A DNA stretch of 64,000 nucleotides, from contig NZ_CP025227.1 in NCBI RefSeq assembly GCF_004010955.1, forward strand, positions 2,604,001-2,668,000. The letters run 5' to 3'. This document shows positions 19,744 through 54,254 of this stretch, piece after piece. A program made the translations under genes and the position numbers. Numbering within the stretch: position 1 is the stretch's first letter; every line of letters begins with the position of its first letter. The notes under the pieces were generated by a model. The model was not told the origin of the DNA, did not search any database, and saw only the letters and a program-made list of their open reading frames with translations. The DNA is from Actinomyces wuliandei. GTDB lineage: Bacteria; Actinomycetota; Actinomycetes; Actinomycetales; Actinomycetaceae.

Positions 19744-20081
19744 CACTGCTCCTGGGGAAATATGACAATCCAGAGTATGGAGGCCCACCCGCCACCCACA
19801 AACGCTAGAAGCCAGTGGACACAGTATTTTACGCAACCGATGCCCAGATAACGGGCCGTACGTCCGCCATGCGTTCCCGGCCTCACAGTACGAATCCCCC
19901 TGCCGACCACAGCCTATTAGTATCGTGATCCCAGACATCAGGAGGCGGAGAAATACGTCGCTACCTCCGTGAGACATCCCGGCCCACCACGCCCCCGCAT
20001 CCACCCGGACTGGCACCGTGCCCGTGGCACCGCGAGCGCCAGGGCGACCACCCAGCCAGTCGGCCTGCCCGGCCGGGACGG
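19744..20081. other. Intergenic region upstream of adhesin 2
   Basis: About 340 bp between prs and adhesin 2, holding the adhesin ribosome site and, by position, its promoter. It has AT-richer patches (19821-19835 and 19911-19930). TACTAAT on the minus strand (near 19917) is a possible -10, but I could not pair it with a clear -35. No gene was seen; the upstream-extended adhesin frame here lacks coding character. Confidence 0.45.
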
Positions 20082-21065: not shown

Positions 21066-21203
21066 GACATAGATCCCTTCTCGCCGCCGCCGCGGCTGTG
21101 GTGCGTGGCCGTACCTGTGCTGCGGCAGCCGTGCAGTGGCGCACACTGCCGCTGGTGCCGGCGGGAGCCGCGAGCAGGTGCCCGCCAGGCTCCCGCCCCG
21201 GTC

Positions 21204-25557: not shown

Positions 25558-26543
25558 GAGCGGCCGTACTCCTCGTGACTCCTGCGACCAAGGCCAGCAC
25601 CGACCATCCCCTGCCCCCGCGCCACCAGCCGGGCACCCTTGGCAGCGTGCCGCACCTGCCCCGGCAGGAGCCCGACGACCATCCGCAGACCACCAGCGCC
25701 GACCCGCAGGGCGCCACCGAGCAGGGCACGTCCGCGAATACCCGCGTGCAGTCCCGCCCCGGCGCGGACCAGCTCCACACGGACCGCCGTTGCGGCGTGA
25801 GAGCGCTGACGGCGCAGAATCCACCGGTGGTCCAACCGCGCCTGCGGGACGTGGTCGCGTACACGAGCCTCGTCGCACCAGCGGATGACACCACCGCTGT
25901 CGGTGAGCCGACGGGTGAAGAGCGTGTCCTCACCCCCGGTCGCACCGAAGGCCTCGTCGAAGACGAGCCCTGCCTCCCGCACGAACCTGAGGTCCAGCAG
26001 CAGGCAGTTGGAGGCCGCCACCGGCCTGACCGTCCCCGTGGGCCAGGTCCGACGGACAAAGAACCCCCCCGCGACGACCCAGGCGTCAGGCTCGACCTCG
26101 TAGTCAGGGACCACCGGCCCGGCAACCGCCTGGCAGCCTGTGGCGGCACGCAGCCTCAGCAGGGACTCCAGCCAGGACGGCTCAGGGGTCTCGTCATCGT
26201 CGATGAACACCAGCAGGTCGCTGTCCTGCGCCTCCTCCAGAGCCCGGTTACGCACCGCAGCCACCCCGGGGCTGGGCTCCATGACATAGCGGACCACCCC
26301 GGGAGGACTCCCTGAGCCGGGCACGGTCTCCACACGCTCCTCGACAGCCTCACGAGCCGAGCCCGCCGGGTCGTTGTCCACAACGAGCACCTCGGCACGC
26401 GAGACGTACCCGGGCACCACGTCACCCAGCTGGGCGCGCACCGCAGCCACGGTACGCGCAACCTCACGCGGACGGCGGAACGTCGGGACAGCCACGGTCA
26501 GTACGGCTGCCGACCGGGGTGCGTCCGCTGTTGTGCCGCTCAT
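25554..26543 (-). CDS. Glycosyltransferase family 2
   Basis: This 329-residue GT-A-fold enzyme has LTVAVPTFRRPREVARTVAAV at the start, VLVVDNDPAGSA, GVAAVRNRALEEA, and the metal-binding FIDDDETPEPSWL. A GGEDTLFTRRL motif resembles the acceptor-side ED of GT2 enzymes. It probably transfers one sugar of the surface polysaccharide repeat unit; donor and acceptor are unknown. ATG 26543 has GGAGGGG close upstream and overlaps the stop of the preceding minus-strand GT2 (ATGA). The two share ~40% or more by eye (FIDDDETPEP, GGEDxLFTRxLTxxGGVIR) and look like tandem duplicates. Confidence 0.88.
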   Translation of the reverse strand: MSGTTADAPRSAAVLTVAVPTFRRPREVARTVAAVRAQLGDVVPGYVSRAEVLVVDNDPAGSAREAVEERVETVPGSGSPPGVVRYVMEPSPGVAAVRNRALEEAQDSDLLVFIDDDETPEPSWLESLLRLRAATGCQAVAGPVVPDYEVEPDAWVVAGGFFVRRTWPTGTVRPVAASNCLLLDLRFVREAGLVFDEAFGATGGEDTLFTRRLTDSGGVIRWCDEARVRDHVPQARLDHRWILRRQRSHAATAVRVELVRAGAGLHAGIRGRALLGGALRVGAGGLRMVVGLLPGQVRHAAKGARLVARGQGMVGAGLGRRSHEEYGRS

Positions 26544-27595
26544 AGGCCCCCTCCTGCGGAGCGCCCCACCCGTCGCGCGGGTCGGCCTCCAGGCCGCCCG
26601 TACTCCCGCACCCGCACGTCACAGGCACCCACCACCATTCCCAGCCCACCGCAGGAGGAGACCTCGTAGCGGGCCTGGGCAGCCAGGTCGCCCCGCAACC
26701 GGGCACCTGCGCCACGCAGGCAGTCCACTGCCGCCTTGGCTGTCCCCTTGGCAGCATAGGCGACTCGCAGAGGGAGGCGCCCACCCTCCGCCGTGTCCAC
26801 GCGCACACGCACCCAGGAGGAGCCGGAGCGGTAGGCACGACGAAGCACCCAGGCCCGGGTGGCCCGCTGCCGGGGAACCTTCTTCCTGACTACCGCCCCG
26901 GTGGCGAACCGGATCACGCCCCCAGCCCGGGTCAGCTGCCGAGTGAACAGGGAGTCCTCACCCCCGGTCAGCCCGTACCTGGGGTCGAAGCGCAGCCCCA
27001 GACGCCTCACGACCGCCAGGTCGAGCAGGAGGTTGCCCGTGTCAGCACTACCCACCTGGCTGCCGTCCTCCGCCTGCCAGGAGTCGAAGGCCCCCGAGGC
27101 CTCCACCCACGGCGGGGGCGGCTCAGCGAAGTCAGCCGGGGTCGGCCCGGTCACCGCAGCACACCGTGTGGTCCTCCACTGTGCCACCAGGGCAGGCAAC
27201 CAGCGTGGCTCGGGGGTCTCGTCGTCGTCGATGAACACCAGGAGGTCGTCGTCGCAGGCCTCGTCCAGGGCACGGTTGCGCCCGGCGACGATACCTGGCT
27301 CAGGCTCGTGGACGTAGGTCAGCTCAACCTGCACGTCGCCGACGCCTGCCCGGCCTGTCGTGGCGGCTACGGAGCCGACGACAGTACCCACAGGATCCTG
27401 GGGCACGTACTCGTCCAGCACAGCCGCCACAACCGGCCGCGCTCCGGCTGCTGGGTCGTTGTCGACGACAAGGACCCGGGCACGCGCCCAGGGCGCCACA
27501 CTGGCCGCCTGGTCCACCAGCAGGGGCAGGACCGCCTGCAGGTAGGAGTTGCGCCTGTACGTCAGCATCGCAATGGTCAGCGTCGGCTCCACCAC
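26540..27595 (-). CDS. Glycosyltransferase family 2 (paralogue of neighbour)
   Basis: This 351-residue GT2 enzyme has TLTIAMLTYRRNSYLQAVLP, VLVVDNDPAAGA, VAGRNRALDEA, the metal-binding FIDDDETPEPRW, and GGEDSLFTRQLTRAGGVIRF. It contains the same motif set as the downstream gene, with which it overlaps by ATGA, so the pair forms a two-gene operon on the minus strand. I chose GTG 27595 because AGGAGGG lies 7 nt upstream and the GT2 fold begins at once; the open frame continues 73 codons further without similarity. The sugar specificity is unknown. Confidence 0.87.
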   Translation of the reverse strand: MVEPTLTIAMLTYRRNSYLQAVLPLLVDQAASVAPWARARVLVVDNDPAAGARPVVAAVLDEYVPQDPVGTVVGSVAATTGRAGVGDVQVELTYVHEPEPGIVAGRNRALDEACDDDLLVFIDDDETPEPRWLPALVAQWRTTRCAAVTGPTPADFAEPPPPWVEASGAFDSWQAEDGSQVGSADTGNLLLDLAVVRRLGLRFDPRYGLTGGEDSLFTRQLTRAGGVIRFATGAVVRKKVPRQRATRAWVLRRAYRSGSSWVRVRVDTAEGGRLPLRVAYAAKGTAKAAVDCLRGAGARLRGDLAAQARYEVSSCGGLGMVVGACDVRVREYGRPGGRPARRVGRSAGGGL

Positions 27596-27834
27596 GCCCT
27601 GTCCCTCCTGGTTCCCCTTAGCTTCTCCCGCCGCTGGCGGCCGTGGCACGCACCCAGCACCGGCACCAGTGCGAGACTCGCCTGCCATCCCCTGCCGGGA
27701 GCCTGGGCGGCACCCGCCAACGGTACTATCTCTGCACACACTCGTCCTGCCCCTGCCGCGTCGGCACCAGGCACCGGCAGTCCTGGCCGCATCTCGGGCC
27801 ACCCTGTGCCCCATACCCTCGGAAGGCTCGTGAC

Positions 27835-28932
27835 ATGACTACCCAGCCCGCCCCTCATGACGACCACGGCCGCCTGTCCCCGGGCACGGCCACCGGTACC
27901 AGCGCTCTGCCGTCCCGTGAGCCTCAGCCGACAGAAAAGACCTGGAGGCCCCCGCACCTGTGCCCCACCTCGGGTGCCCAGCTGCTGTCACGCACGGCGA
28001 TCATCGTCGTCAGCTACGACTCCGCCTCTCTTCTGGGCCGCAACCTCGCCCAGGTCGCCCAGGCCGCACCGGAGGCGGCCGTGGTCGTCGTCGACAGCTA
28101 CTCCAGCCCTGAGGCACGTACCGCCCTCCTTCGTCTGGCGGAGGAGCACGGCTGGTCCACGGTACTGCCGCCGACCAACCTCGGGTTCGGCGCGGGCATG
28201 AACCTGGGCGCCGCGAAGGCCCTCGACCAGGGTGCTGAGCTGCTTGTCCTGCTCAACCCGGATGCTGTCATCGACCGCCCCAGCCTGCTCAGGCTGGCCA
28301 CCAGGGCAGCGGGGAACCCGAGTGCCCTGGTGGCCCCGGTCCTCACCAACTCCAGCGGCCGCACCGTCTCCGACGGCGCGGTGGTGTGCCTGGCTGACGG
28401 CTCGATGCGCTCGCGCCGCTCCCGGAGGCCCGTACCGCCAGGGGGAACACATCCCTGGCTGTCCGGGGCCTGCCTGGCCCTGTCCAGTGAGCTGTTCGAG
28501 ACGGTGGGAGGCTTTGACGCCCGCTACTTCCTGTACTGGGAGGATGTTGACTTCTCCTCACGCGTCCTGGCATCCGGAGGAAGCCTGGTGCTGGCCCGTG
28601 ACGCGACAGCCACCCACGACGAGGGTGGCACGCACGCCCAGGAGCACAGTACACGCGCCAAGTCGGACACCTACTACTACTACAACATACGCAACCGGCT
28701 GCTCTATGCCGGGCTGCACCTGGACCGTCCTCACCAGCGGCGCTGGGCGGTGACCGCCCTGGCTGCTGCCCGCGAGACCGTGCTTCGCGGCGGTCGGCGC
28801 CAGCTGCTGGGCTCGCGCCAGCCGCTGCGCACAGCAGCAGCAGCGACTCGCGACGGGCTGACACTGCTGCGTCAGGCGCGGCAGGGACTGCTTCCGGACC
28901 CCACGGAGCCCATCCTGCGGCCTGGCACCTAG
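27835..28932 (+). CDS. Glycosyltransferase family 2, WbbL/rhamnosyltransferase-like
   Basis: This 365-residue GT2 enzyme has TAIIVVSYDSASLL, VVVVDSYSS, NLGFGAGMNLGAA, the LLNPDAVID variant of the DxD motif, and WLSGACLALSSELFETVGGFDARYFLYWEDVDFSSRV with the ED catalytic pair. These are landmarks of the WbbL/rhamnosyltransferase-like branch. A ~45-residue N-terminal extension precedes the domain. ATG 27835 has GGAAGG 8 nt upstream. It is divergent from the GT2 pair at 25554-27595 across ~240 bp that must hold both promoters. Confidence 0.88.
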   Translation: MTTQPAPHDDHGRLSPGTATGTSALPSREPQPTEKTWRPPHLCPTSGAQLLSRTAIIVVSYDSASLLGRNLAQVAQAAPEAAVVVVDSYSSPEARTALLRLAEEHGWSTVLPPTNLGFGAGMNLGAAKALDQGAELLVLLNPDAVIDRPSLLRLATRAAGNPSALVAPVLTNSSGRTVSDGAVVCLADGSMRSRRSRRPVPPGGTHPWLSGACLALSSELFETVGGFDARYFLYWEDVDFSSRVLASGGSLVLARDATATHDEGGTHAQEHSTRAKSDTYYYYNIRNRLLYAGLHLDRPHQRRWAVTALAAARETVLRGGRRQLLGSRQPLRTAAAATRDGLTLLRQARQGLLPDPTEPILRPGT

Positions 28933-29177: not shown

Positions 29178-32100
29178 TCAGTGCTGGGTGACGGTGAGGT
29201 TGCTAACCGCCAGGGTGACGGTCTCCGGACCAGCTGACCCGGACATGTAGGTGGTGATCCCCACGGTCCCGGCCTCGTTGAGGGTCTTCTCGGTGTCCAC
29301 GACATCGACCCCCCAGTCCTGCGGCTCGGTGTCCCCGGCCCAGAACCTGGCCTGGAGCGTCGTGGACTCCTCACCGGAGACCACCAGGCGCAGGTGCAGG
29401 TCCTGACCCGCCGTGTAGGGCTCATCCAGGACGATGGTCCCCAGGGCGGTCTCCAGCCCACCGACCACCTTGGCTACCGTGACAACGGGAGCCCCGGCAG
29501 AGCCCACACGCATCGTGGCCTGGTAGCGGCCAGCGTCATTGGCGCGAGCAACATAGGAGACAAAGGCTCCGTTACCACCGGGCGCAGAGTCCAGGGAGAA
29601 GTCGAGCACGGTCTCGGTCGAGGTGGAGTCGATCTCCTGCGAGCTCACCGAGGAGGACGAGCGAGCACCCTCCATGGCGATACGGCCCTGGGACTCGTCG
29701 GTGGAGAACGACGGGGCGTTCCAGGTGACCTTCCAGGGGCCGCCGGTCGGGGCGCTGCCCCAGCCACGGGTAGTAGTGCGGTCGAAGTCGTCGGCCAGGA
29801 GCACGTCCCCCACGGCAGGGGCGTCGGCGTCGGCCTCATCCTGGGCCACCTCCTTGCCGGAGCCCAGCGTGTAGTGCGCAGCGACCTGGCTGGGTCCCAG
29901 TGGGACACCGTAGACCGCGACCTCGTCAACGTCCGCCTCGATGTAGTGCGTCGAGGGCGCGCCGCTGACACCTTCCAGGGTGTCCCCACCGACCCGCCAG
30001 AAACCGGTGTAGCTCTGGCCGGTGGTCATGGTGGACTCAAAGGCCTCCAGCCGTCCGTCAACGTACAGGGTGGCACCAGCGGTGGGGCTCAGCGAGGCGA
30101 CAACATGATGCCACTGCCCGTCGTTGTAGCTCTCGGAGGTTGTCACCGTGCTCGGTGCTCCCGGGTTGAGCATGAGGCTCAGCGTCCCGTCATTGCGCAT
30201 GTAGACCACTCGGTCATAGCTGGCGGAGCTGCCCGTGGCGGAGGAGCCGAAGCCCACAACCGCGCCGCCGCTGGAGGAGGTGGTACGCACCCACGCCTCC
30301 ACTGAGAAGGCTGTCGGCGCCACCGACGAGGTAGCGGTAGCGGCACTGCTCTGGGAGTTACGGTCAGAGGCGAGGGACAGGGCAGAGCCCGAGCCCAGGA
30401 CGGACTCCGCGCCCCAGCTGTAGCTCGAGCCACTGAGCCGCAGGTCCCGCTCAGCGACAAGGTCCTGGGCAGCCTCGCCGCTCTCCTCGTCCAAGGGCCA
30501 GTAGTGGGCCGCGCCGTCAGTCAGGACACGAGCCCCGTAGTCAGACAGGGCCTCTCCCTCCGCAGCAGTCACTGTTACCCAGTCCGAGTGGGTCCAGGCC
30601 CCCCAGGGGTCAGTCACCACCACCCGGTAGCGATGGGTACTGCCCGGCTCGACGACGTCGGTCGCACTGAGGTTAGGCAGCTCCCAGTAGCCAGCCGTCA
30701 CCGTCTGGGTCGAGATCGGCTCGGAGTCCCGGGTGTCCCGGTAGACGGAGTAGGTGAGGGTCTTGTCATCACGGTCCCAGTTACCCGGGAAGGAGACGGT
30801 GACCACCCCGGCGCGCGAGGAGCTGGCCGTCACCTTGTAGGCGCCGCCCTTGTTCATAGGCCCCTGCTGGTTGGGGGCGATGTCACGACGGGCGAAGCGG
30901 ACCAGGCCCTGCTGGGCGGTGCCGTTGACCGAGAGGAACTCCCCACCGTAGACCACGTACTCGTCATTGCCCTCCACCGTCCACGTCGCCTGGTTGGTGC
31001 GGGTGATGGTCCCAGGCTTGAACTCCGGGTAGAAGTTCAGGTTCGTGGCCGCAGGCTGGCCCGGGTAGCTGTGGTAGCCACGGGCGTAGCTGGTCTCGAC
31101 GGTGCCGGTGGCGTAGTTGGTGTAAGCCACGGCGTTGTGGAAGCGGCGCTGCTCGGGGAAGCCTCCAATATTACGGCAGTCGTGGGCGTGGCTGGAGACG
31201 TAGACGACCTCGGAGGTGGGGAAGAGGTCGTAGGAGTCGCCGTGGCAGTCGGCCATGACATCCAGGTCACCGGTCTCCCAGTTCGCCCGGAACATGCCCT
31301 CGAAGGACCCCGTCATGGAGTAGGCCACCCCGTAGAGCCCCTGCTCGTCGGCTTCCAGGTCCATGACCGAGGCGTTGATTCCCGCGCTACGCACGACCGA
31401 GCTAATGTTGTTCCGGCGCAGGCTCCCGTCATTCTCCAGGACCGCAACGCCGAACCCAGGCTTGTCGGAGCCCTCGACAGAGGTGAAGGCCCCGCCGATA
31501 GCCACTGCGCTGGAGTCAGGAGCTGTGACGATGGTCCGCACGTAGAGGTTGTCCACCTGGGCGGAGAAGCTGGTGAGCTTCTGGGTGGCCAGGTCCACCG
31601 CCGCCACACGCTGACGGGCCGAGGAGTTCACCTGCGTGAACGCACCCCCCACGTACAACGTCGACCCGTCCGCAGACACCTCCACCGCCTTGACCGACCC
31701 GTTCGCCGAGGCACCCACCGGCACCCGCCGCCCACTCACAGCGTCCACCGACCCCACACGCCACGTCACCTCACCATTGAGGGACGTAAAGTCACCACCC
31801 AGGTAGACCACCGACCCGTCAGCCGACGCGTCCACCGAGTTCACCACCCCGTTGACCACCGGAGCCCAGTCCAGCAGCTCACCCGTGGCAATGTCATACG
31901 CCAGCACGTTGCCACGAGCCACCTCACCCACCCCCGCAGCAGCACCCGCAGGCCGCGCCGACGAGAAGCTCCCCACCGCATACACCGTGCCACCCACAAC
32001 CACCTGGTCCCACACCACACCATCAACCTGCACCGTCGGCAACGCATCCGCCGACACCGTGGTGGGGTCCCCGCCAATGGCTGCGGGCTCAGCAGGCTCG

Positions 32101-32210
32101 GACACCTCGTCCGCGACGGCGGACGAGACCGGGGCGACAAGGGCAGTAACGCCAAGGCACAAGGCAGAGGCGGCAGCGGCAAGGCTGCGCACCGGGCGGG
32201 GGACGCTCAC
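29178..32210 (-). CDS. Secreted beta-propeller-like protein with FN3 and LamG-like domains (propeller 1)
   Basis: This ~1010-residue exported protein has a signal peptide (SLAAAASALCLGVTALVAPVSSAVA). Its repeat domain (~45-430) has blades of the form G-x-V-Y-A/L-G-G-x-F-T. A conserved MADCHGDSYD...SHAHDC segment comes next, then TWVEGNDEYVVYGGEF (read TWTVEGNDEYVV), an FN3-like module (~445-545), a LamG/concanavalin-like domain (~560-775) and a second beta-sandwich-like domain (~785-1010). There is no sorting signal or lipobox, so it is released or non-covalently held. The start is uncertain. GTG 32210 puts the signal peptide at the N-terminus and has GGAG just upstream; the frame stays open to 32354, but with codon use unlike the rest. 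It shares two near-identical DNA tracts with propeller 3. Function is not recognised. Confidence 0.8.
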   Translation of the reverse strand: MSVPRPVRSLAAAASALCLGVTALVAPVSSAVADEVSEPAEPAAIGGDPTTVSADALPTVQVDGVVWDQVVVGGTVYAVGSFSSARPAGAAAGVGEVARGNVLAYDIATGELLDWAPVVNGVVNSVDASADGSVVYLGGDFTSLNGEVTWRVGSVDAVSGRRVPVGASANGSVKAVEVSADGSTLYVGGAFTQVNSSARQRVAAVDLATQKLTSFSAQVDNLYVRTIVTAPDSSAVAIGGAFTSVEGSDKPGFGVAVLENDGSLRRNNISSVVRSAGINASVMDLEADEQGLYGVAYSMTGSFEGMFRANWETGDLDVMADCHGDSYDLFPTSEVVYVSSHAHDCRNIGGFPEQRRFHNAVAYTNYATGTVETSYARGYHSYPGQPAATNLNFYPEFKPGTITRTNQATWTVEGNDEYVVYGGEFLSVNGTAQQGLVRFARRDIAPNQQGPMNKGGAYKVTASSSRAGVVTVSFPGNWDRDDKTLTYSVYRDTRDSEPISTQTVTAGYWELPNLSATDVVEPGSTHRYRVVVTDPWGAWTHSDWVTVTAAEGEALSDYGARVLTDGAAHYWPLDEESGEAAQDLVAERDLRLSGSSYSWGAESVLGSGSALSLASDRNSQSSAATATSSVAPTAFSVEAWVRTTSSSGGAVVGFGSSATGSSASYDRVVYMRNDGTLSLMLNPGAPSTVTTSESYNDGQWHHVVASLSPTAGATLYVDGRLEAFESTMTTGQSYTGFWRVGGDTLEGVSGAPSTHYIEADVDEVAVYGVPLGPSQVAAHYTLGSGKEVAQDEADADAPAVGDVLLADDFDRTTTRGWGSAPTGGPWKVTWNAPSFSTDESQGRIAMEGARSSSSVSSQEIDSTSTETVLDFSLDSAPGGNGAFVSYVARANDAGRYQATMRVGSAGAPVVTVAKVVGGLETALGTIVLDEPYTAGQDLHLRLVVSGEESTTLQARFWAGDTEPQDWGVDVVDTEKTLNEAGTVGITTYMSGSAGPETVTLAVSNLTVTQH
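30863..30993. repeat. 131-bp tract identical to 35873-36003
   Basis: This stretch, encoding the end of the propeller domain (QQGPxNKG and VEGNDEYVVYGGEFLSVNG region), is identical by eye to 35873-36003 in propeller 3. The offset is 5010 bp, the same as for the longer tract at 31591-32062, while the sequence between the two tracts differs clearly. Confidence 0.85.
31591..32062. repeat. 472-bp tract near-identical to 36601-37072
   Basis: This encodes the first propeller blades (from DALPTVQVDGVVWDQ to RVAAVDLATQ). Compared by eye with 36601-37072, I found one difference (Glu codon GAG against GAA at about 31710/36720). Such identity between paralogues that otherwise differ points to recent gene conversion or duplication. 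Confidence 0.88.
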
Positions 32211-32731
32211 ACGTTCTCCATTCACGCTGTTCATGGGCACAGAAGGAAGGGAAACGCCACGTTGGGGAAGTGGCGCCTGGAGCGGCTTGGAGGGAGCCGC
32301 GGAAGAAGCGTACAACGACAAAGCCGCACGCGTCGTCTTGGTGGTTATCACCACTTCTCCTCAGGCCTACCCCCAACTGTCCCCAGGTCCCTGACACCTT
32401 GCTGACGTCCTGCTAGCGCCTGGCTGGCGCGCTGCTGACACCGTGGCCCAACCCTGTCGTGCCGCACACCGTCGCCTCCAGCAGGATCCCCCAGCAGGAC
32501 GGCACCTGCCAGCGCGCGAGGGCGTCGAGCCCTTGACGCGTCCAGCGCCCCACGACCACAGAGCGCGGAGCCGCCTCACCCAGAACCCGCCGTACGCATC
32601 CACACGTCACCCCGCGACCACGCCGGACAGGACCGACGGTCACGGGGTGACGTCCCCAGGTCCTGGCCCTCGCCCCGAAGGCGTCCCTGAGAGCCAGCGA
32701 GCACGGGCACGAGGGAAGCCAGCGCGGCCGC
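32211..32731. other. Intergenic region between propeller 1 and the lipoprotein gene
   Basis: About 520 bp. The first ~145 bp (32211-32354) are an in-frame open extension of propeller 1 with low GC at third positions, so more likely leader than coding. A small inverted repeat GCGCC-TGGCT-GGCGC lies near 32416-32430. I see no gene and no clear promoter motif in the rest. Confidence 0.4.
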
Positions 32732-33475
32732 TCAGCCGGAGGCGGCTCCCTCAAAGACCGCTGCGGGGTAGTCGGCCCCCAGGTCAACAACGACCTGGAG
32801 GCTGTCGAGCCCTTCGGCTGGGACGGAAAAAGCTCGCTCAATGACAAGCGTCTCGCCCGGGGCCAACGACGCCGGGACCTCGTCGGAAGCCAGTCCCACC
32901 TCTCCGGCAGGCACCCCCTCAGAGCCATAGGTGAGGGTTGTCACCAGGCCCGCCAGGGGGAGATCAGAACCTGAGGTATTCGTCACCTTGACAGGAACCA
33001 CAACTCCGGGGCCGCCAATCTCACCGGGGCCAGCCTCCAGGTCCGTGGCAGTGATCGGGTCGATCGAGACTGTTGCCGCGTCCTCAACCGTCACTGCCTC
33101 GTCGGTCGTCACCGCGTCCAGCTGGTCAGCAGACAGGTCCCCAGCGGCAACAGCCTCCTCATCCCCGGACCTCCCGGGCGTGGCGACGTCCTCCTCAGGT
33201 GCTGCCGAGTCGGGGGTCCCCAGCGGGGAGGGCGTCTCCTCAGCGGCCGACGACTCCTCCGAGGAGGCCCCCGGGCTGCTGGCCCCCTCGGAGGCCTGCG
33301 CCGCCACGGAGGAGGAGGCGGAGGCCGTTGCCGAGTCCCGGCCCTCGCCCTGGGATGAGCAGGCCGTCAGGAGGAAGGCAGGAGCGGCGGCAAGAAGTAG
33401 GAGGGCTGGCACTCGGGCTGGTGCTCGGTATGGTGACACGAGTGGCAGCGTACGGCGTCGCAGCCAGGACGTCAC
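32732..33475 (-). CDS. Predicted lipoprotein with an Ig-like C-terminal domain
   Basis: This protein of about 247 residues has a basic N-terminus (WLRRRTLPLVSPYRAPARVP), a hydrophobic segment LLLLAAAPAFLLTAC ending in an LTAC lipobox, a ~100-residue Ser/Ala/Glu-rich linker, and a C-terminal beta-rich domain. That domain (VVVPVKVTNTSGSDLPLAG..., ~150-245) resembles DUF4352/Ig-like lipoprotein domains. It should be tethered to the outer face of the membrane. Possible starts are GTG 33475 (used here) and GTG 33439; neither has a strong ribosome site. The frame stays open into the upstream gene but is a shadow there. It lies 61 bp downstream of propeller 2 on the same strand and is probably co-transcribed with it. 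Function is not recognised. Confidence 0.72.
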   Translation of the reverse strand: MTSWLRRRTLPLVSPYRAPARVPALLLLAAAPAFLLTACSSQGEGRDSATASASSSVAAQASEGASSPGASSEESSAAEETPSPLGTPDSAAPEEDVATPGRSGDEEAVAAGDLSADQLDAVTTDEAVTVEDAATVSIDPITATDLEAGPGEIGGPGVVVPVKVTNTSGSDLPLAGLVTTLTYGSEGVPAGEVGLASDEVPASLAPGETLVIERAFSVPAEGLDSLQVVVDLGADYPAAVFEGAASG

Positions 33476-33536
33476 ACCACGCGGGTCACGATCAGGACTC
33501 CCTGCCCGGCGACCGCCTGGCTCACTGCGTGCGCCG

Positions 33537-35048
33537 TCAGCGCCGACCACCGCGTCCACGCCCCGCCTCAGCACCCTCGGCGTCCTGCTCGTTGTCCTCG
33601 CCGTCATTGCCGTCGCCGCCGTCATTGTCCGCGCCGTCGTTCCCGCCGCCTCCATCATCCGCAGCAGCGTCACCCCCGTTGACATCACCCGCACCGGCAT
33701 CACCCGCACCCGCGTCGGCCTCAGCTCCCGCACCCGCGTCACCGCGCGCGGCGAAGCGGACCAGCCCCTGCTGAGCGGTGCCGTTGACCGCGAGGAACTC
33801 CCCGCCGTAGACCACGTAGTCGTCATTGCCCTCCACCGTCCACGTCGCCTGGTAGGTCCCCGTGTACGAGCCGATCTGGAACTGGGGCAGGAACCCGTCC
33901 AGAAGCGTCGTCGCCGGGTTCCCCTCGTAGCTCACGTATCCCGGTACCCGGTTCCTTTGCACGGTCCCGGAAGGGGAGGCGGCATAGGCGACAGCGTGCC
34001 GGTACTCGTTGTCCAGGTCCGCGAATCCTCCGATGTTCGAGCAGTCATGAGTGTGGCTGGCCACGTAGACGACGTCCCCAGCCGGGTAGACGTCGTAGGA
34101 GTCGCCGTGGCAGTCGGCCATGAGCGTGATCTCACCGGTGTCCCAGTCCGCGCGGAGCATCCCCTCAAACTCACCAGTCCTGGAGTAGGAGACAGCGTAG
34201 AGCCCCTGGGCGTCCGCCTCCAGGCTCATGATTCCCGACCTGTCGCCCGAGTTGCTCACCACCGAGCTGACCTGGTTAGGCCGCAGCGTCCCGTCCGTCT
34301 CCAGGACGGCCATGCCCTCGCCGGGACGGCTCGACCCGTTGACCTCGGTGAAGGAGCCCCCAATGGCCACCGACCGCCCGTCCACGGACACCGCCACAGC
34401 GCGCACGCCGTGATCACTCACCTCGGGGGCAAAGCCGGTGAGGGTCTGCGTCCCCAGGTCCACGGCAGCAACTCGCTGACGGGCTGAGGAGTTGACCTGG
34501 GTAAAGTCGCCACCGACGTACAAGGTGGTGCCGTCGGGCGAGACCTCAAGGTCCCTGACGGTGGCGTTGGCGGAGGCAGCCAGCGGCCTGCGGGCGGCAG
34601 TAGCAGCCTCCACCGCCCCGACGCGCCAGGTGGCCTCCCCGTTGAGCGAGGTGAAGGAGCCTCCCAGGTACAGGGTCGTCCCGTCGGCGGAGGCCGCGAC
34701 GGCGTTGACGGCCCCGTCGGCCGTCGGCGCCCAGTCCAGCAGCTGCCCCGTGGCGATGTCGTAGGCCAGGGCGTTGGCACGTGGGACCTCGTCCTCGCCC
34801 TCGGGGGAGCCAGCCGGGCGCGCCGCGTCAAAGCTCCCCACGGCGTAGACGGTGCTACCCACCACCTCCTGGTCCCACACCACGCCGTTGACCTGGACGG
34901 TCGGAAGAGGCTCGGGCGAGGCCACAGCCGCCGCAGCGTCGGCAGCAGGCGCAGGAGCCGCAGGGACCAGGAGCGACACCGTCAGGAAGGGGGCAGCCGC
35001 GAGCACGAGAAGACTGCGGGTACGACCACGGGCGCGGTGGTATCTCAT
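33537..35048 (-). CDS. Secreted beta-propeller-like protein with acidic low-complexity tail (propeller 2)
   Basis: This 503-residue paralogue of propellers 1 and 3 has a signal peptide (~1-35, ending APAADA). It is followed by the same repeat domain: LPTVQVNGVVWDQEVVGSTVYAVGSF, YLGGSFTSLNG, YVGGDFTQVNSSARQRVAAVDL, MADCHGDSYDVYP, SHTHDCSNIGGF and VEGNDDYVVYGGEFLAVNGTAQQGLVRF. Instead of FN3 and LamG domains it ends in ~70 residues rich in Gly, Asp, Ala and Asn, closing with RGRGGRR. At the DNA level it is clearly more diverged than the other two. ATG 35048 has GGAG 8 nt upstream. It probably forms an operon with the lipoprotein gene. No wall anchor is visible. Confidence 0.83.
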   Translation of the reverse strand: MRYHRARGRTRSLLVLAAAPFLTVSLLVPAAPAPAADAAAAVASPEPLPTVQVNGVVWDQEVVGSTVYAVGSFDAARPAGSPEGEDEVPRANALAYDIATGQLLDWAPTADGAVNAVAASADGTTLYLGGSFTSLNGEATWRVGAVEAATAARRPLAASANATVRDLEVSPDGTTLYVGGDFTQVNSSARQRVAAVDLGTQTLTGFAPEVSDHGVRAVAVSVDGRSVAIGGSFTEVNGSSRPGEGMAVLETDGTLRPNQVSSVVSNSGDRSGIMSLEADAQGLYAVSYSRTGEFEGMLRADWDTGEITLMADCHGDSYDVYPAGDVVYVASHTHDCSNIGGFADLDNEYRHAVAYAASPSGTVQRNRVPGYVSYEGNPATTLLDGFLPQFQIGSYTGTYQATWTVEGNDDYVVYGGEFLAVNGTAQQGLVRFAARGDAGAGAEADAGAGDAGAGDVNGGDAAADDGGGGNDGADNDGGDGNDGEDNEQDAEGAEAGRGRGGRR

Positions 35049-35309
35049 CAGAGCTACTCCGATCAGGCAGAGAAGAAGGAGATGGTGGCACAGCCAGAGC
35101 GGAAGGCTGCCCGTTCACGAGACACGGCCACAGGCCGCTGCCCAGCAGATTAGTACATCTGTAACTCTTAGATAACGCACATCGACAGAAACCCACCTAC
35201 CACCGCGTGAGTTATCACACAAGAGCGGCCGCCCCACACTGCCTTCGTCCCCGCTCCCGCACCGCAGCCCGGCATCGTCGCCTAGCGGGTCATTGCGTGC
35301 TCAACTGTT

Positions 35310-37352
35310 TTAGAATCTATCTCTCTTCCCGTTCTCACGCCAACCACCCCGAATCTGGTCACGGTTGTCGGGGCTCTCAGCACCGTCACCGTCAGCACCA
35401 GCGCCAGCCCCGCCCACCGGCCCGTCGACAGCGTCGTCAGCGTCGGCACCAGCGCCCGCCGGCTCCTCCCCCGCCGGCGCCCCCGCCTCGCCTCCGGCAG
35501 GAGCGTCCTCACCGGCGTCCGCCGCCGCCCCGCCTTCCGGCTCGGCAGCCGTCAGGCTCACCCACTCCGAGCGCGTCCAGGCCCCCCACTGGTCCCACAC
35601 GACGACAACGTAGCTGTGAGTACTACCAGGATCGACCTCGTCGGCCACCTCCAGGGTCGAGATCTGCCAGAAGGAGGAGCTCACCTGCTGGCTCCACACC
35701 GGCTCCTGCGCGCGGAAGTCCTCAAGGCTACGAGCTGCGTCGACATCCCGGTAGACGGCATAGGTCAGGGCCTGGTCGTCACGGTCCCAGTTAGTGGAGA
35801 AGGACAGGTCGACCCGGCCCGCCTGCTCAGAGGACGCCGTCAGCGGGTAGGCACCGCCCTTGTTCACGGGACCCTGCTGGTTGGGGGCGATGTCACGACG
35901 GGCGAAGCGGACCAGGCCCTGCTGGGCGGTGCCGTTGACCGAGAGGAACTCCCCACCGTAGACCACGTACTCGTCATTGCCCTCCACCGTCCACGTCGCC
36001 TGGCTGGTCCCCGTGTACGAGCCGATCTGGAAGGAGGGGTAGAAGTGCAGGTTGGTAGCCGCAGGCTGGCCTGAGTAGTCGTAGTAGTTCGTGTCGGTGG
36101 TAGGCAGGGTCTCCCCGGTGGCATCGCTGGTGAAGGCCGGGGCGTGCCAGTACTGGTTCGGCGCAGCGTCCGGGAAGCCCCCGATGTTGGAGCAGTCGTG
36201 GGCGTGGCTGGCCACGTAGACCACGTCCCCAGCCGGGTAGACGTCGTAGGAGTCGCCGTGGCAATCTGCCATGACGTCCAGGTCGCCCGTGTCCCAGCTG
36301 GCCCGGAACATGCCCTCGAAGGACCCGGTCCTGGAGTAGGTGACCCCGTAGAAGCCACGCTCGTCCCCGGCAAGAGCCATGACGGCACTCCTGCTCCCCC
36401 CGGCGCCGACCACCCGGCCAGCACCCGGCTGGCGAGCGGTGCCATCCGCCTCCAGCACTGCCAGTCCCGGCGACTGGAGCCCACCCACGGTGGTGAAGGA
36501 GCCTCCGACGACCACGGAGCCCCCGTCCGGGGAGACGGTCAGGGCACGCACCACATAGTCCTCGACAGTCGGGGAGAAGCTGGTGAGCCTCTGGGTGGCC
36601 AGGTCCACCGCCGCCACACGCTGACGGGCCGAGGAGTTCACCTGCGTGAACGCACCCCCCACGTACAACGTCGACCCGTCCGCAGACACCTCCACCGCCT
36701 TGACCGACCCGTTCGCCGAAGCACCCACCGGCACCCGCCGCCCACTCACAGCGTCCACCGACCCCACACGCCACGTCACCTCACCATTGAGGGACGTAAA
36801 GTCACCACCCAGGTAGACCACCGACCCGTCAGCCGACGCGTCCACCGAGTTCACCACCCCGTTGACCACCGGAGCCCAGTCCAGCAGCTCACCCGTGGCA
36901 ATGTCATACGCCAGCACGTTGCCACGAGCCACCTCACCCACCCCCGCAGCAGCACCCGCAGGCCGCGCCGACGAGAAGCTCCCCACCGCATACACCGTGC
37001 CACCCACAACCACCTGGTCCCACACCACACCATCAACCTGCACCGTCGGCAACGCATCCGCCGACACCGTGGCAGGCAGCTCGTCAGCACCCGCCCCGGG
37101 CGCCTCCTGGTTCACCCCCTCCTGGGGATCCTCCTGCGGGGCCTCCGCCGGGTCCTCCTCATCCGCCTGCGCCCCGTCCTCCTGGTCCTGCGGGACATTG
37201 GGGCCAGGCCACGCACCCGGACCCGCATGCTGCGCAGGCGCCGCGTAAGTGGGGACAGCGGGTGCGACACAGGCGAGAAGCAGTGCTATCAGCGCAGTAA
37301 CGGCTGTAACAGCAGTCGCAGACCAGGCACGGCAAGGGAGGGTACGGGACAC
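35310..37352 (-). CDS. Secreted beta-propeller-like protein with FN3-like module (propeller 3)
   Basis: This ~680-residue exported protein has a signal peptide with a long hydrophobic core (ATAVTAVTALIALLLACVA), then an acidic Gln/Glu/Pro-rich spacer (QEDGAQADEEDPAEAPQEDP). The propeller-like repeat domain (~95-480) includes MADCHGDSYDVYP and SHAHDCSNIGGFP. An FN3-like module (~490-600) and an Ala/Gly/Glu/Asp-rich tail ending NGKRDRF follow. I chose GTG 37352 because the preceding CGGAG-AAGCT matches the leader of propeller 2; ATG 37367 is an alternative. The blades encoded at 36601-37072 are near-identical in DNA to propeller 1, while the middle blades differ. Function is not recognised. Confidence 0.8.
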   Translation of the reverse strand: MSRTLPCRAWSATAVTAVTALIALLLACVAPAVPTYAAPAQHAGPGAWPGPNVPQDQEDGAQADEEDPAEAPQEDPQEGVNQEAPGAGADELPATVSADALPTVQVDGVVWDQVVVGGTVYAVGSFSSARPAGAAAGVGEVARGNVLAYDIATGELLDWAPVVNGVVNSVDASADGSVVYLGGDFTSLNGEVTWRVGSVDAVSGRRVPVGASANGSVKAVEVSADGSTLYVGGAFTQVNSSARQRVAAVDLATQRLTSFSPTVEDYVVRALTVSPDGGSVVVGGSFTTVGGLQSPGLAVLEADGTARQPGAGRVVGAGGSRSAVMALAGDERGFYGVTYSRTGSFEGMFRASWDTGDLDVMADCHGDSYDVYPAGDVVYVASHAHDCSNIGGFPDAAPNQYWHAPAFTSDATGETLPTTDTNYYDYSGQPAATNLHFYPSFQIGSYTGTSQATWTVEGNDEYVVYGGEFLSVNGTAQQGLVRFARRDIAPNQQGPVNKGGAYPLTASSEQAGRVDLSFSTNWDRDDQALTYAVYRDVDAARSLEDFRAQEPVWSQQVSSSFWQISTLEVADEVDPGSTHSYVVVVWDQWGAWTRSEWVSLTAAEPEGGAAADAGEDAPAGGEAGAPAGEEPAGAGADADDAVDGPVGGAGAGADGDGAESPDNRDQIRGGWRENGKRDRF
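35873..36003. repeat. 131-bp tract identical to 30863-30993
   Basis: Partner of the tract at 30863-30993 (offset 5010 bp), encoding the last propeller segment and the start of the FN3-like linker. Confidence 0.85.
36601..37072. repeat. 472-bp tract near-identical to 31591-32062
   Basis: Partner of the tract at 31591-32062 (offset 5010 bp). Identity breaks down sharply at both ends, within 10-15 bp. Confidence 0.88.
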
Positions 37353-37696
37353 AGCTTCTCCGATCATGCTCGAGGAGGCGGGGAGCCTGGGACAGGCTGG
37401 CACCCGACAGACCCTCCCCAACGCCTTAAGAGTGGGAGCCCAGGGCGCGCCCGGGGACATCCTGAGACGCTGCCCTGTGCCACCAGGACCCAGCGCTCAG
37501 TTCGTACAGGATGACAGGAGCACCGGGGGGTAAGCAAGCATGCCGACGACTCTCCACAGCAGGGGACCACTGAGACCGGAGACCTCGGTCCACAGGGACC
37601 GCCACGCCATCGGTAGGCTGGCCGGGTCCTCGGCGGCCCCGACCAGCCGCCCACGTCCGCCCGACGACGCTCCTTGCCCGCCCGTGAAAGGCCACC
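37353..37696. other. Divergent intergenic region (propeller 3 / glycosyltransferase)
   Basis: About 340 bp between divergent start codons, expected to hold promoters for propeller 3 (-) and the glycosyltransferase operon (+). No convincing -10/-35 pair, operator or small gene was seen. Confidence 0.4.
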
Positions 37697-38914
37697 GTGA
37701 CCACGACATCCCACACGCTCTTCCGCCCCCGCACCCACCGTGCCCGCCGGGCGGCCGACCCGGGCCGACTTCGGATCGCCATGCTGGGGACACGCGGTGT
37801 CCCGGCACGCTACGGCGGCTTCGAGACCGCCGTCGAGGAGGTCGGCGCACGCCTGGTGGCACGAGGGCACCAGGTCCTCGTCTACTGCCGCAACCCCGAG
37901 CCGTCCACACCCCTGCCGCAGTTCTACCTGGGGATGCGCCTTGTCGAGCTCCCGGCTGTCAGAAGCCGCAGCCTGGAGACGCTGAGCCACACAGCGCTGT
38001 CAGTTGTCCACCTGCTACGGCGTACCCGCCCGGACATGGCCTTCGTCTTCAACTCCGCCAACGCCCCCTTCCTGCCGGCGCTACGAGCTGCCCGCGTGCC
38101 CGTCGCCACCCACGTTGACGGCCTGGAGTGGCAGCGAGGCAAGTGGGGCACCGCAGGCAGGCACTACTACCGGGCCGCCGAGGCCGCTGCCGTCCGCTTC
38201 TCGGACGCCCTCATCGCCGACGCCCAGGGCATCGCCGACTACTACGCCCAGGAGTTCGGTGCACCCACTGACCTTATCTCCTATGGCGCCCCTGTGATCA
38301 GGACAGGTACCTCCCGCCTGGCGGAGCTGGGCCTGGCCCCAGGCTCCTTCCACCTGGTTGTCGCCCGCTTCGAGGTAGAGAACCATGTCGATCTCATTGT
38401 GGAGGGCTACGTGCGCTCTGCTGCCAGGCTGCCGCTTGTCGTCGTCGGCTCCGCCCCCTACGCCGACGCCTACACCGCCCGGATCAGGTCCCTGGCGGAC
38501 TCCCGGGTCCGCCTGCTGGGCGGCGTCTGGGACCAGGAGCTGCTCGACGCCCTCTACTGCGGCGCGCTGGTCTACCTCCACGGGCACTCCGTGGGCGGCA
38601 CCAACCCTTCGCTGCTGCGAGCTATCGGCGCCGGAGCCGCCGTCGACGCCTTCGACGTCGGGTTCAACCGGGAGGTCCTGGGAGACACCGGCCGCTACTG
38701 GCGCACTCCCGAGGACGTCAGCGCCCTGGTGGCCTCCGCCGAGTCCGACCCCGGCGCCCAGGCTGATCGCGGTCAGGCCGCCCAGCGCCGCGCCCGCCTC
38801 TACGACTGGGACCAGGTCGCCGCCCGCTACGAGTCCCTGGCCCTCCGCCTGGCGCTGGGCGGCCCCGTAGCCATGCGCCCCTCCGGCCGACGCACCGGGA
38901 GGAGGAGCCTGTGA
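37697..38914 (+). CDS. Glycosyltransferase with DUF1972-type N-terminus (rhamnosyltransferase-like, GT4 fold)
   Basis: This 405-residue GT-B enzyme has RIAMLGTRGVPARYGGFETAVEEVGARLVARGHQVLVYCR at the N-terminus, the hallmark of DUF1972-type GT4 enzymes, many of which act as rhamnosyltransferases in polysaccharide synthesis. HVDGLEWQRGKWG and the nucleotide-sugar region (HGHSVGGTNPSLLRAIGAGAAVDAFDVGFNREVLGD) follow. GTG 37697 has AAAGG 5 nt upstream. The stop overlaps the next gene's start as GTGA, so the two transferases are translationally coupled and probably add consecutive sugars. The rhamnose assignment is tentative. Confidence 0.85.
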   Translation: MTTTSHTLFRPRTHRARRAADPGRLRIAMLGTRGVPARYGGFETAVEEVGARLVARGHQVLVYCRNPEPSTPLPQFYLGMRLVELPAVRSRSLETLSHTALSVVHLLRRTRPDMAFVFNSANAPFLPALRAARVPVATHVDGLEWQRGKWGTAGRHYYRAAEAAAVRFSDALIADAQGIADYYAQEFGAPTDLISYGAPVIRTGTSRLAELGLAPGSFHLVVARFEVENHVDLIVEGYVRSAARLPLVVVGSAPYADAYTARIRSLADSRVRLLGGVWDQELLDALYCGALVYLHGHSVGGTNPSLLRAIGAGAAVDAFDVGFNREVLGDTGRYWRTPEDVSALVASAESDPGAQADRGQAAQRRARLYDWDQVAARYESLALRLALGGPVAMRPSGRRTGRRSL

Positions 38915-40116
38915 GCACGATCCTGGTCGCCCACCCCTCCCCGGACCTCTACGGCTCCGACCTTCAGCTCGTCGAGACGGTCCGAGCCCTCCTCGGTGCC
39001 GGCCACACGGTCAAGGTGGCTCTTCCTACCGACGGCCCTCTGCGCCCTGTCCTACGCGCAGCCGGGGCGCAGGTCGCCGTCACGCCCTTCACGGTGCTGC
39101 GCAAGGCCCTGCTCACGGCAGGGGGGCTGACCTCGCTGGGACTCCACGCCGCAGTCGAGACCGACCGTCTTCGCCGACTGGTCCGCACCAGCGGAGCCGA
39201 CCTGGTCCTGACCAACACGGTGACGCTCCCGTGGTGGCCGCTGGCCGGGCGCGCCGCAGGCCTACCGGTCCTGGCCCACGTCCACGAGGCGGAGAGCACC
39301 CAGCACCGGGTCATCCGCTCCGGTCTCAACGCCCCGCTCCTCGCAGCCTCCAGGATCGTGGTCAACTCCTCGGCTGCCCGGGACGCGCTCCTGTCGGTCC
39401 TGCCCCGGCTGGCCTCCCGGACCACCGTGGTGCACAACGGTGTGGCGGGGCCACCCGAGCCCCTGGTACCGCTGCGTCGTCGTGAGGCAAACTCACCGCT
39501 CCATGTCGTCATGGTGGGGCGGTTGTCTCCTCGCAAGGGCGTGGACGTGGTCCTGGAGGCTGTGGCCCTGCTGCGTCGCGGCGGCACGGACGCCTCCCTG
39601 ACCGTGTGCGGCTCCGTCTTTCCCGGGTACGAGTGGTACGAGGAGGAGCTGCGTCGGCGGGCCGCGCAGCCGGACCTGGCCGGGCAGGTCCGCTTTCTCG
39701 GCTACGTCCACCCCACGTGGCCGGTGCTGGAGACGGCCGACGTCGTGACCGTCCCCTCCCGGGCGGAGCCCTTCGGCAACACGGCGGTGGAGGCCATGCA
39801 CGCGGGGCGGCCGCTGGTGGCCTCCCGGGTGCAGGGCCTGGCAGAGGTTGTCACTGACGGCGTGACCGGCCTCCTGGTCCCGCCCGAGGAACCGGCTGCC
39901 CTGGCCCAGGCCCTGGGCGACCTGGCGGCCCACCCGGGCAAGGCCGCCCTGCTGGCACGACAGGCTGCCGAGGACGCCGCAGCACGCTTCTCTGTCGAGG
40001 GCTACCGCGCCACCATGGTCGGCATCGTCGCCGAGTCCCTGGCCGACAGGGATGCTCCCGCGTGGTTTGTCAGACGACCACGGGGCAGCCAGGAAAGCCG
40101 GGGGGCGTGTGGGTGA
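38911..40116 (+). CDS. Glycosyltransferase family 4
   Basis: This 401-residue GT-B enzyme begins TILVAHPSPDLYGSDLQLVETVRALL and contains HVHEAES, VVNSSAARDAL, TTVVHNGV, VMVGRLSPRKGVDVVLEAVALL, and the donor-binding VPSRAEPFGNTAVEAMHAGRPLVASRVQGLAEVVTDGVTGLLVPP with the EPFGNTAVEAM (E-x7-E) motif. It is a retaining transferase using a nucleotide sugar; the sugar is unknown. It is coupled to the upstream DUF1972-type enzyme by a GTGA overlap. About 650 bp downstream is an inactivated insertion element. Confidence 0.9.
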   Translation: MSTILVAHPSPDLYGSDLQLVETVRALLGAGHTVKVALPTDGPLRPVLRAAGAQVAVTPFTVLRKALLTAGGLTSLGLHAAVETDRLRRLVRTSGADLVLTNTVTLPWWPLAGRAAGLPVLAHVHEAESTQHRVIRSGLNAPLLAASRIVVNSSAARDALLSVLPRLASRTTVVHNGVAGPPEPLVPLRRREANSPLHVVMVGRLSPRKGVDVVLEAVALLRRGGTDASLTVCGSVFPGYEWYEEELRRRAAQPDLAGQVRFLGYVHPTWPVLETADVVTVPSRAEPFGNTAVEAMHAGRPLVASRVQGLAEVVTDGVTGLLVPPEEPAALAQALGDLAAHPGKAALLARQAAEDAAARFSVEGYRATMVGIVAESLADRDAPAWFVRRPRGSQESRGACG

Positions 40117-40773: not shown

Positions 40774-42324
40774 CCTTGTTGTTTCGTGGGTGGGGTGGGT
40801 GGGGTTGTGGGGGTTCGGGCTTGTTGGGGTGGGGTTGGTTGTGGCGTGTGGGTGTGGCGGGGTGGGGCGTGTGGTCGCGGTGGGTGGGCCTTGCCTGCTG
40901 GCGGGGTCCTTCCTGGGGGTCGTGGGTGGGTGGTGGTTTGCTGGTGCTGTGGGTCGGCGTGCGCGCAGGGTGGTGATCGCTGGGGTCAGCAGGTCGGCGA
41001 AGGGGGCTGGGGGTCTTGCAGCGGGTGGTGGCGCGCCGCGCGTGGCGCGTGATGACAGCTGGCACGCTGGGCAGGCGGTGGCGCACGGGCTTGGGCGCCC
41101 ACCTGCGGGCGGGGTGGTCTGCCAGGCAGAGCACCTGCGCCCAGGCGAGGGTGTCGCGGGCCAGGGCCACGACCTGGCACCAGGTGCGGTTGGCCGCGAG
41201 GGCCTGCAGCAGCACGCGGTCGACCCCGGTGCCCTGCGCGGCGGACACGGTCCTCACACCTGGCCCGCTGGCGGTGGCCTGCCTCCAGGTCGGCGGGCTG
41301 GCCGGTCCTGGTGCTGGTCCCAAAGGCGGTCAGCCGGCAGCCGTCGACGTCGTCGAGCCTGGGCCGGGCGCCGGGGCGCGGTCTTTCGCGGCGCACGATG
41401 ACACGCGTGGCCCTGGGCCACCCGCCCACGTCGACCAGGTCCGTCAGCCCTGCCACGTCCGCCGCCTCGCGGGAGCCGCGTCGGCGCCGCAGGCAGGGGT
41501 CCAGGCCTGGGCGGGGACCAGCCTGCAGGCCCGCGACATGTCACTGGGCAGGGTGAGTCCGACGCTGCAGGACACCCCTCTGCGCTCCAGGGCGGCCAAG
41601 GTGGCCTTGGTCCCACCAGCAGCGTCGGTGCGCACGAGCACCTTGCGTCCGGGCCCGGGGCCCAGGCCCACACGGGCCAGCACCACGGCGATGACAGCCT
41701 CATGGTCGGCGGCGGTGTCCGACCCCGCGCTCGCGGGCCGCAGCATGACCGCGGCGTTCTCGCCAGCACCTTGGGGACCGTGGTCGGTCCACGCGGTCAA
41801 GGGACGGAGCCCAAAGCCCCTTCCTGCCCTTCTTGAAGGTCGGTGCCACCCCCCTCCTTCATTGTCAGGGTGGGCGGTGACCAAGGTGGCGCCGGTATCA
41901 GTGACCAGCGGCCGCTGGGCGCTGACAGCGGCCGTCAGCGCCCACGCTCCGGCCAGGGTCCAGCCCGCGCGGCGCGCCCTGGCCAGGACCACCGCGCGCT
42001 CAACCACCAGCGACAGCGCCAGGTCGAGGACGACCTTGACCGGGTCATGGCGCGCCAGCAGCCTGGACCACGGCGCCAGAACCTGTGACAGCAGCACGTC
42101 CAGCCCGCGGGCGCGCACCGTCTCGGCCAGCAGCACTCCACCACCATGAGCAAGCACGTTGACCCAGCCGGTCCCGACACCCACCAACAAGCACAACCCT
42201 GCTGCAGTCCCCACCTCGAAGGTGTCCCTCCCCTGAAACACGACAGACCCCAACAACCCACACCACTCCAGACGAAACGACACCTTCACCCCCGCCTCAG
42301 CCCCTCAACCACGAAACCCCGAGG
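40774..42324 (-). mobile_element. Degenerate IS1380-family insertion sequence
   Basis: The element is bounded by imperfect 19-bp inverted repeats: CCTTGTTGTTTCGTGGGTG at 40774-40792, and CCTCGGGGTTTCGTGGTTG read inward from 42324. They match at 15 of 19 positions. The length of ~1.55 kb is slightly below typical IS1380 elements and agrees with an internal deletion in the transposase. No target-site duplication is recognisable (GTAG left, CCAG right). It encodes only a broken transposase, so it is immobile unless helped in trans. Confidence 0.72.
40830..42289 (-). pseudogene. IS1380-family transposase, frameshifted and internally deleted
   Basis: Three minus-strand frames together give an IS1380-type DDE transposase. 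Segment one (42289 to ~41470) has GGGVLLAETVRARGLDVLLS, TLVTAHPDNEG, FGLRPLTAWTDHGPQGAGE and PGRKVLVRTDAAGGTK. Segment two (~41460 to ~41245) has GLTDLVDVGGWPRATRVIVRRERP, VDGCRLTAF and RARCEDRVR. Segment three (~41245 to ~40860) has QGTGVDRVLLQALAANRTWCQVVALA and ARRWAPKPVRHRL. Two frameshifts are therefore needed. The family's DxDATLVTAH motif reads DTGATLVTAH, losing the second Asp, and ~80-90 residues between LDLALSL and the WxLAG region are missing. The gene is clearly inactive. Exact ends of each segment are approximate. Confidence 0.82.
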
Positions 42325-54147: not shown

Positions 54148-54254
54148 GACGCCTGCCGCACTGTGGCCCGGCACCAGCGACATGGTCCGGGCCCGTTCAC
54201 CGCGCCCCGCCCCCGCCCGAGGAAAGCCCACCGGAAGTCAGAGGAGGACTGTCT

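Follow-up and report, generated by a model that had tools for sequence, protein, structure and literature searches.

The stretch of DNA analysed here, called the window throughout, is 64,000 nucleotides (G000:C1:2604001-2668000) from the 3.1-Mb single-contig genome of Actinomyces wuliandei, and contains four neighbouring genes given on the minus strand in the order P3, P2, partner lipoprotein, P1 (Table 1). As stated in a preliminary description of this DNA, the three secreted propeller proteins and the lipoprotein that these genes encode are located among glycosyltransferases, within a cluster of the Wzx/Wzy-like polysaccharide type. A propeller and an anchored partner recur together beside such genes in many actinobacteria, and the pair is therefore probably an undescribed extracellular part of the actinobacterial surface-polysaccharide machinery. 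The type of locus is a known one, its new element being this unrecognised, recurrent extracellular pair.

The proteins P1 to P3 are 63–72% identical to each other over their aligned parts, which is far beyond chance and rules out a fortuitous similarity. The motifs LPTVQV[DN]GVVWDQ, DCHGDSYD, SH[AT]HDC and VEGND[ED]YVVYGGEF, previously noted as shared, are present in all three. The signal peptide, which had been described as shared too, is not; each protein has an N-terminus of its own that is signal-peptide-like by eye, and these differ in sequence. The likely starts are a GTG at 32210 behind a GGAG-like site for P1 and an ATG at 37367 for P3. The propeller fold is confirmed, the predicted model being confident and seven-bladed. 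All three proteins are above the cut-off of the Rax2 model (29.5, 35.1 and 39.8 bits for P1, P2 and P3, against 28.8), while DUF5122 passes only in full-length P3 (31 against 27; P2 scores 26). Pfam recognises the propeller and LamG only, and NCBIfam has no match for P1–P3 at E ≤ 0.001. Fold searches with the propeller return generic WD40-type propellers, without a functional pointer, and when the PDB is searched by sequence with the propeller profile, the matches are SAKe, which is a designed protein, and a sybody.

The C-terminal modules by which the three proteins had been told apart hold in part. In P1 the signal peptide and propeller are followed by an FN3-like segment, a LamG domain and a conserved last domain of about 200 amino acids (DDFDRT..GWG), which is absent from the preliminary description. 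LamG is confirmed in P1 only, whereas fn3 is not called by Pfam at E ≤ 0.001 in P1–P3 or in 30 full-length relatives, so that these segments are FN3-like by eye only. Of the 30 full-length family members, hand-picked within a residue limit for an alignment (A3), 25 have LamG and 22 have PKD. Among the short-type propellers of the genus (L120–L165), the low-complexity tail of Asp, Asn, Lys and Gly terminates, by eye, in clustered tryptophans (for example GGGWWWW or WGWGWGW) in 17 of 21 cases; P2 of the window has no such cluster and ends in GRGRGGRR. Being secreted, encoded amid transferases and equipped with low-complexity tails and linkers, the propellers or their tails might themselves be the proteins that receive the glycan of the locus. 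The strongest conservation is in the folded propeller, however, rather than in the tails, and Pfam revealed no enzyme of protein glycosylation in those window proteins that were scanned with it; a role as carrier is very improbable.

That conservation is centred on one site, here called C...HxHxC. Across 63 aligned propellers, residues C283, G285, Y298, H302, H304 and C306 are invariant, and D286 and Y288 are nearly so, in the numbering of the first row of alignment A1, to which 30 is added for P2. The alignment uses 63 of 67 domain references, omitting one with masked letters in its full-length open reading frame (ORF), two second copies and the distant L041; L036 had been excluded earlier. 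Read from the predicted secondary structure, the loop joining blades 5 and 6 contains C283, and C306 belongs to one of the loops of blade 6; both residues would then be on one face of the propeller. Blade 6 also has a long insertion. The motif is absent from 40 out of 40 generic DUF5122 relatives, each considered in its best-matching frame only. The site is kept by L036 and L038–L040, distant members with no partner nearby, which shows it to be independent of the partner; L041 is without the site.

Near-total conservation of these residues, the absence of the motif from the generic relatives and its retention even in distant members with no partner speak for a catalytic site, perhaps with a metal on HxH, which trims, modifies or transfers the polymer while the partner holds the enzyme. 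This is the strongest rival to the tethering model set out below. Up to four propeller genes are found in tandem in some genomes, however, and that many copies with different tails at one locus fit binding or structural proteins somewhat better; the two cysteines may merely form a disulphide; and no enzyme family was matched, the fold matches being the generic ones. On balance an enzyme is unlikely, though of the alternatives it deserves the most attention.

The partner is a protein of 235–247 amino acids, and not the whole 364-amino-acid ORF. It has a lipobox, LLTAC, after a hydrophobic stretch, then a Ser/Glu-rich linker and an immunoglobulin (Ig)-like domain at 32741–33118, the model of which has a predicted local distance difference test (pLDDT) score of 95.1; its last 130 residues define a family (alignment A2). 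Within the genus, 43 of 49 genomes have both partner and propeller and the other 6 have neither, and each of the 49 partner matches has a same-strand propeller at most 3 kb away. The gene sits between the short and long propeller types in the window and, by eye, in all 15 of the genus regions fetched in which both types are adjacent. The 5 of 50 fetched genus regions in which it is missing are distal extra copies, in genomes that carry a partner at the main locus.

The 39 family loci L003–L041, mostly from beyond the genus, were found by similarity to P2, in a search from which the best 80 of 95 confirmed relatives were kept, and are therefore a biased sample. The partner is present in 31 of them, four of which are from Actinomyces, and was not found in L019 (which starts at a contig end), L030, L033, L036 and L038–L041. 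Of the 35 partner matches in these loci, 33 share the strand of a propeller no more than 2.5 kb away, and 32 of these are upstream of it. A class sample of 148 genomes is closer to unbiased, although it contains the window's own genome; with at most the best 29 partner and 12 propeller candidates scored per genome, the partner is found in 6 genomes; each of these is one of the 7 whose propellers reach at least 499 bits, and no partner is found in the 9 genomes with weaker propeller scores. In 5 of the 6 it is within 1 kb of a propeller domain (4 on the same strand), and in the sixth, G242, it is 5.4 kb away on the opposite strand. The partner is dedicated and co-inherited, and its co-inheritance and adjacency with the propeller rule out that the lipoprotein is an unrelated bystander.

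The anchor itself varies. There is a lipobox in 49 of 52 matches from Actinomyces, a count in which at least four genomes appear twice, L003–L006 being Actinomyces genomes that are also among L120–L169. Elsewhere a transmembrane segment is present in 23 of 31 matches and a lipobox in 3, with 5 unclassified; 7 of all 83 matches are unclassified, and L009 and L161, scored as transmembrane by the script, have lipoboxes by eye. That membrane attachment has been retained while its type has changed suggests that tethering is the point of the partner.

Association with polysaccharide genes, which the preliminary description had proposed as a check, was found in the genus and in other actinobacteria. 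Of the 49 genus genomes, 43 have the P2 propeller and 46 the initiating sugar transferase PF02397. In 40 of those 43 the distance from a propeller to a PF02397 gene is 25 kb or less; in the three others, PF02397 is missing from the contig (two genomes) or 176 kb distant (one). Among 31 propeller-bearing genomes reached through the other actinobacterial loci it is within 25 kb in 22, with 8 having none on that contig and one having it at 40 kb; a 32nd genome (G137) has no propeller at E ≤ 1e-20. By chance, only about 3% of the genome in the genus and 2.5% in the others would be that close. Counted as individual propeller matches in the genus, fragments included, 68 of 87 are within 25 kb, 8 are at 25.7–30.3 kb, 2 are far away (176 and 241 kb) and 9 have none on the contig. 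The preliminary description would have been refuted if most family members lay outside polysaccharide loci, which these proximity counts reject. One or more polysaccharide markers are present in 36 of 39 family loci and 2 of 40 control loci, a contrast inflated by the fact that these neighbour hidden Markov models were built from the family loci themselves; the controls moreover come largely from other phyla and vary in length. PF02397 is the sole independent model. Outside the genus the propeller is patchy, present at the thresholds used in 6 of 61 family-wide and 16 of 148 class genomes.

The propellers could also be adhesins or matrix proteins, placed at the locus only for the sake of regulation and having no contact with the polysaccharide: LamG and PKD modules and tandem copies with variable tails are adhesin-like, and other large secreted Ig-type proteins are encoded in the window. 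A mere neighbour would, however, be expected to drift off, while the link to PF02397 is kept across many genera and the propellers have a partner of their own, making this explanation quite improbable, less so only than that of a glycan carrier.

The reading preferred here, to which a probability of about one half is given, is that the four genes make a two-part module outside the membrane, in which the partner docks the propellers and these bind the polymer and organise or retain it. The membrane-anchored Ig-like protein, a lipoprotein here and a single-span protein in most other actinobacteria, would dock one or more secreted seven-bladed propellers on the outer side of the membrane, where the polymer leaves it. 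Polymer binding by the propellers may involve both the site of blades 5 and 6 (C..GD.Y, HxHxC) and the variable tails (LamG, PKD or low-complexity), and the bound polymer would then be organised or retained at the cell surface. From the observed co-location with polysaccharide genes, co-inheritance, adjacency, anchor and signal sequences, fold models and conserved site, we infer contact between partner and propeller, polymer binding and surface retention. Tethering with polymer handling is the simplest model to fit the co-inheritance, the anchoring, the secretion signals, the LamG and PKD tails and the locus.

Several observations weigh against this model. LamG and PKD domains occur also in proteins that do not bind glycans, and P2 has no LamG. 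The site and the partner are separable, as in the four distant loci that keep only the former, and at the level of the locus the partner is missed in L019 (at its contig end), L030, L033 and L041. In the class sample, G154 has a high-scoring propeller and no partner match, although this may have been outside the candidates scored. The genus genome with PF02397 176 kb away, G100, has no other propeller. Conversely, G067, G096 and G105, also of the genus, have PF02397 and no propeller, which indicates that these transferases do not require one.

It is possible, although put forward with more reserve than the tethering model, that the pair is an undescribed extracytoplasmic machine for assembling or anchoring surface polysaccharides in single-membrane actinobacteria, capturing the chain after flippase and polymerase, acting on it at C...HxHxC and fixing it to the surface through interchangeable tails. 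If so, the pair would be an extracellular counterpart of the dedicated proteins that serve these purposes in the periplasm and outer membrane of Gram-negatives.

With the Rax2/DUF5122 beta-propellers (PF12768, PF17164) the family has the propeller repeat in common, and P1–P3 pass the Rax2 cut-off; fungal Rax2 is a cell-polarity protein. The family differs from these in the C...HxHxC site, the blade 6 insertion, the anchored partner and the polysaccharide-locus setting. Gram-positive Wzx/Wzy-type loci share with the window PF02397, the Wzx-like flippase, the Wzz-like protein and the GT2 and GT4 glycosyltransferases, but we know of no described streptococcal-type locus with secreted propellers and an anchored partner, or with a CDP-alcohol phosphatidyltransferase, as are present here. 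The anchored Ig-like sandwich of the partner is shared with YxkC, YcdA and YjhA of B. subtilis, through weak fold matches (the best PDB matches, YxkC and YcdA, are at E 7e-4 to 8e-4); unlike these lipoproteins, which carry the DUF4352 label, the window partner is paired with propellers. It has no DUF4352 match, and DUF4232 is below cut-off at E 0.004, while DUF4352 is matched by 12 of 19 partner-family members at E ≤ 1 (best 9.9e-5). The core of Streptomyces GlxA is a propeller. GlxA is a copper radical oxidase and CslA a single cellulose-synthase-like enzyme, and neither family is matched by P1–P3 or the scanned neighbours; Pfam gives no galactose-oxidase (Kelch) match in P1–P3 at E ≤ 0.001, and Kelch_6 matches weakly in 3 of 63 relatives. 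Conserved Cys, Tyr and His residues, the kinds that make up the GlxA-type site (a Tyr-Cys cofactor with two Tyr and two His as copper ligands), are present in the aligned propellers. In CslA-GlxA, a polysaccharide synthase of actinobacteria depends on a partner whose extracellular part is large, and this is a precedent for an extracellular partner similar to that proposed for the propellers (PMC11022532).

No description of a module of propeller and anchored partner was recognised in the open-access literature searched, which most subscription journals lie outside, in agreement with the earlier remark that no characterised system has this composition. Actinomyces species have a prominent part in building dental plaque. 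To our knowledge, little is understood of how single-membrane actinobacteria put together their surface polysaccharides, and keep them in place, once these have been exported; a co-inherited secreted pair with one conserved site makes this question directly testable. The pair can also mark such loci at the sequence level, its proteins currently being named only 'LamG domain-containing', 'hypothetical' or similar in the databases.

In a tree of propeller domains, P2 clusters with short-type proteins of other species (open frames of about 525–615 amino acids) and P1 with their long LamG-type proteins (about 1010–1060 amino acids), while P3 clusters with P1 of its own genome, probably because of the two tracts of 483 and 132 bp that P1 and P3 have in common. 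The position of P3 is therefore an unsafe guide to its origin. Outside the first tract, 20-codon windows of P1 and P3 drop to 44–57%, with one intermediate window at 80%, and this patchy similarity looks like gene conversion. Exact blocks of at least 60 bp are rare, occurring in 2 of 64 paralogue pairs, P1/P3 included. In G074 (L133), the nearest genome, where the P2 relative is 91% identical, all three propellers are each split into two pieces, by sequencing errors or decay.

Table 1. Positions in the window of the propeller and partner genes, their features and the neighbouring polysaccharide genes
Feature	Position	Strand	Remarks
P1, long-type secreted propeller	29178–32210	-	about 1010 amino acids; ORF extends up to 32354
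LamG domain of P1 (PF13385)	29880–30353	-	72.2 bits, cut-off 27.6
Partner lipoprotein	32732–33475	-	235 or 247 amino acids; GTG start at 33439 or 33475
P2, short-type secreted propeller	33537–35048	-	503 amino acids; acidic C-terminal tail
P3, secreted propeller	35310–37367	-	about 685 amino acids; FN3-like segment and acidic tail; ORF up to 37460
C...HxHxC site of P2	34041–34112	-	Cys313 to Cys336
Counterpart of site in P1	31176–31247		
Counterpart of site in P3	36192–36263		
Tract common to P1 and P3	31580–32062 (P1), 36590–37072 (P3)	-	1 mismatch in 483 bp
Identical tract of P1 and P3	30862–30993, 35872–36003		132 bp
Wzz-like chain-length protein (PF02706)	23396–24157	+	29.3 bits, cut-off 25.5
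GT2-type glycosyltransferase	25554–26543	-	Pfam
GT2-type glycosyltransferase	26540–27814	-	Pfam
GT2-type glycosyltransferase	27643–28932	+	Pfam
GT4-like glycosyltransferase, first of two	37697–38914	+	Pfam
GT4-like glycosyltransferase, second of two	38911–40116	+	grouped by similarity with other neighbours
CDP-alcohol phosphatidyltransferase (PF01066)	43514–44506	-	37.8 bits, cut-off 22
Wzx-like flippase (PF01943)	44208–45782	-	30.4 bits, cut-off 28.2
Initiating sugar transferase (PF02397)	46290–47774	+	209.1 bits, cut-off 27; genome G000:C1:2651184-2651753

The components of a Wzx/Wzy-type locus (PF02397, PF01943, PF02706 and the GT2 and GT4 models) are all over cut-off. Pfam identifies no Wzy polymerase in the window, where the candidate ORF at 24154–25557 has no Pfam match; a Wzy_C protein is present in the relative locus L015. 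Relatives of the CDP-alcohol phosphatidyltransferase are found in 19 of the 39 family loci, and those of a right-handed beta-helix protein (PF13229; L010:16850-18823) in 12 of 39, in both cases with models built from these same loci; with such a model the beta-helix protein was not found in the window. A partial DDE transposase match (PF13701, profile positions 134–267 of 435) is present within the cluster at 41444–42289.

The cluster is flanked by prs and a glmU-like gene (20082–22202). A prs relative is present in 8 of the 39 loci L003–L041, several of which also have glmU, ribosomal L25 and peptidyl-tRNA hydrolase genes, and the chromosomal place of the cluster may be ancient. Two large adhesin-like proteins with 7–8 DUF5979 repeats and a DUF7926 domain, one of them with a clear signal-peptide-like start, are encoded at 6055–9876 and 15718–20016. 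The region at 48211–60992 encodes a protein of 1978 amino acids with Ig, cadherin and fn3 repeats, followed by a MoxR-type ATPase, DUF58 and RDD/FHA proteins.

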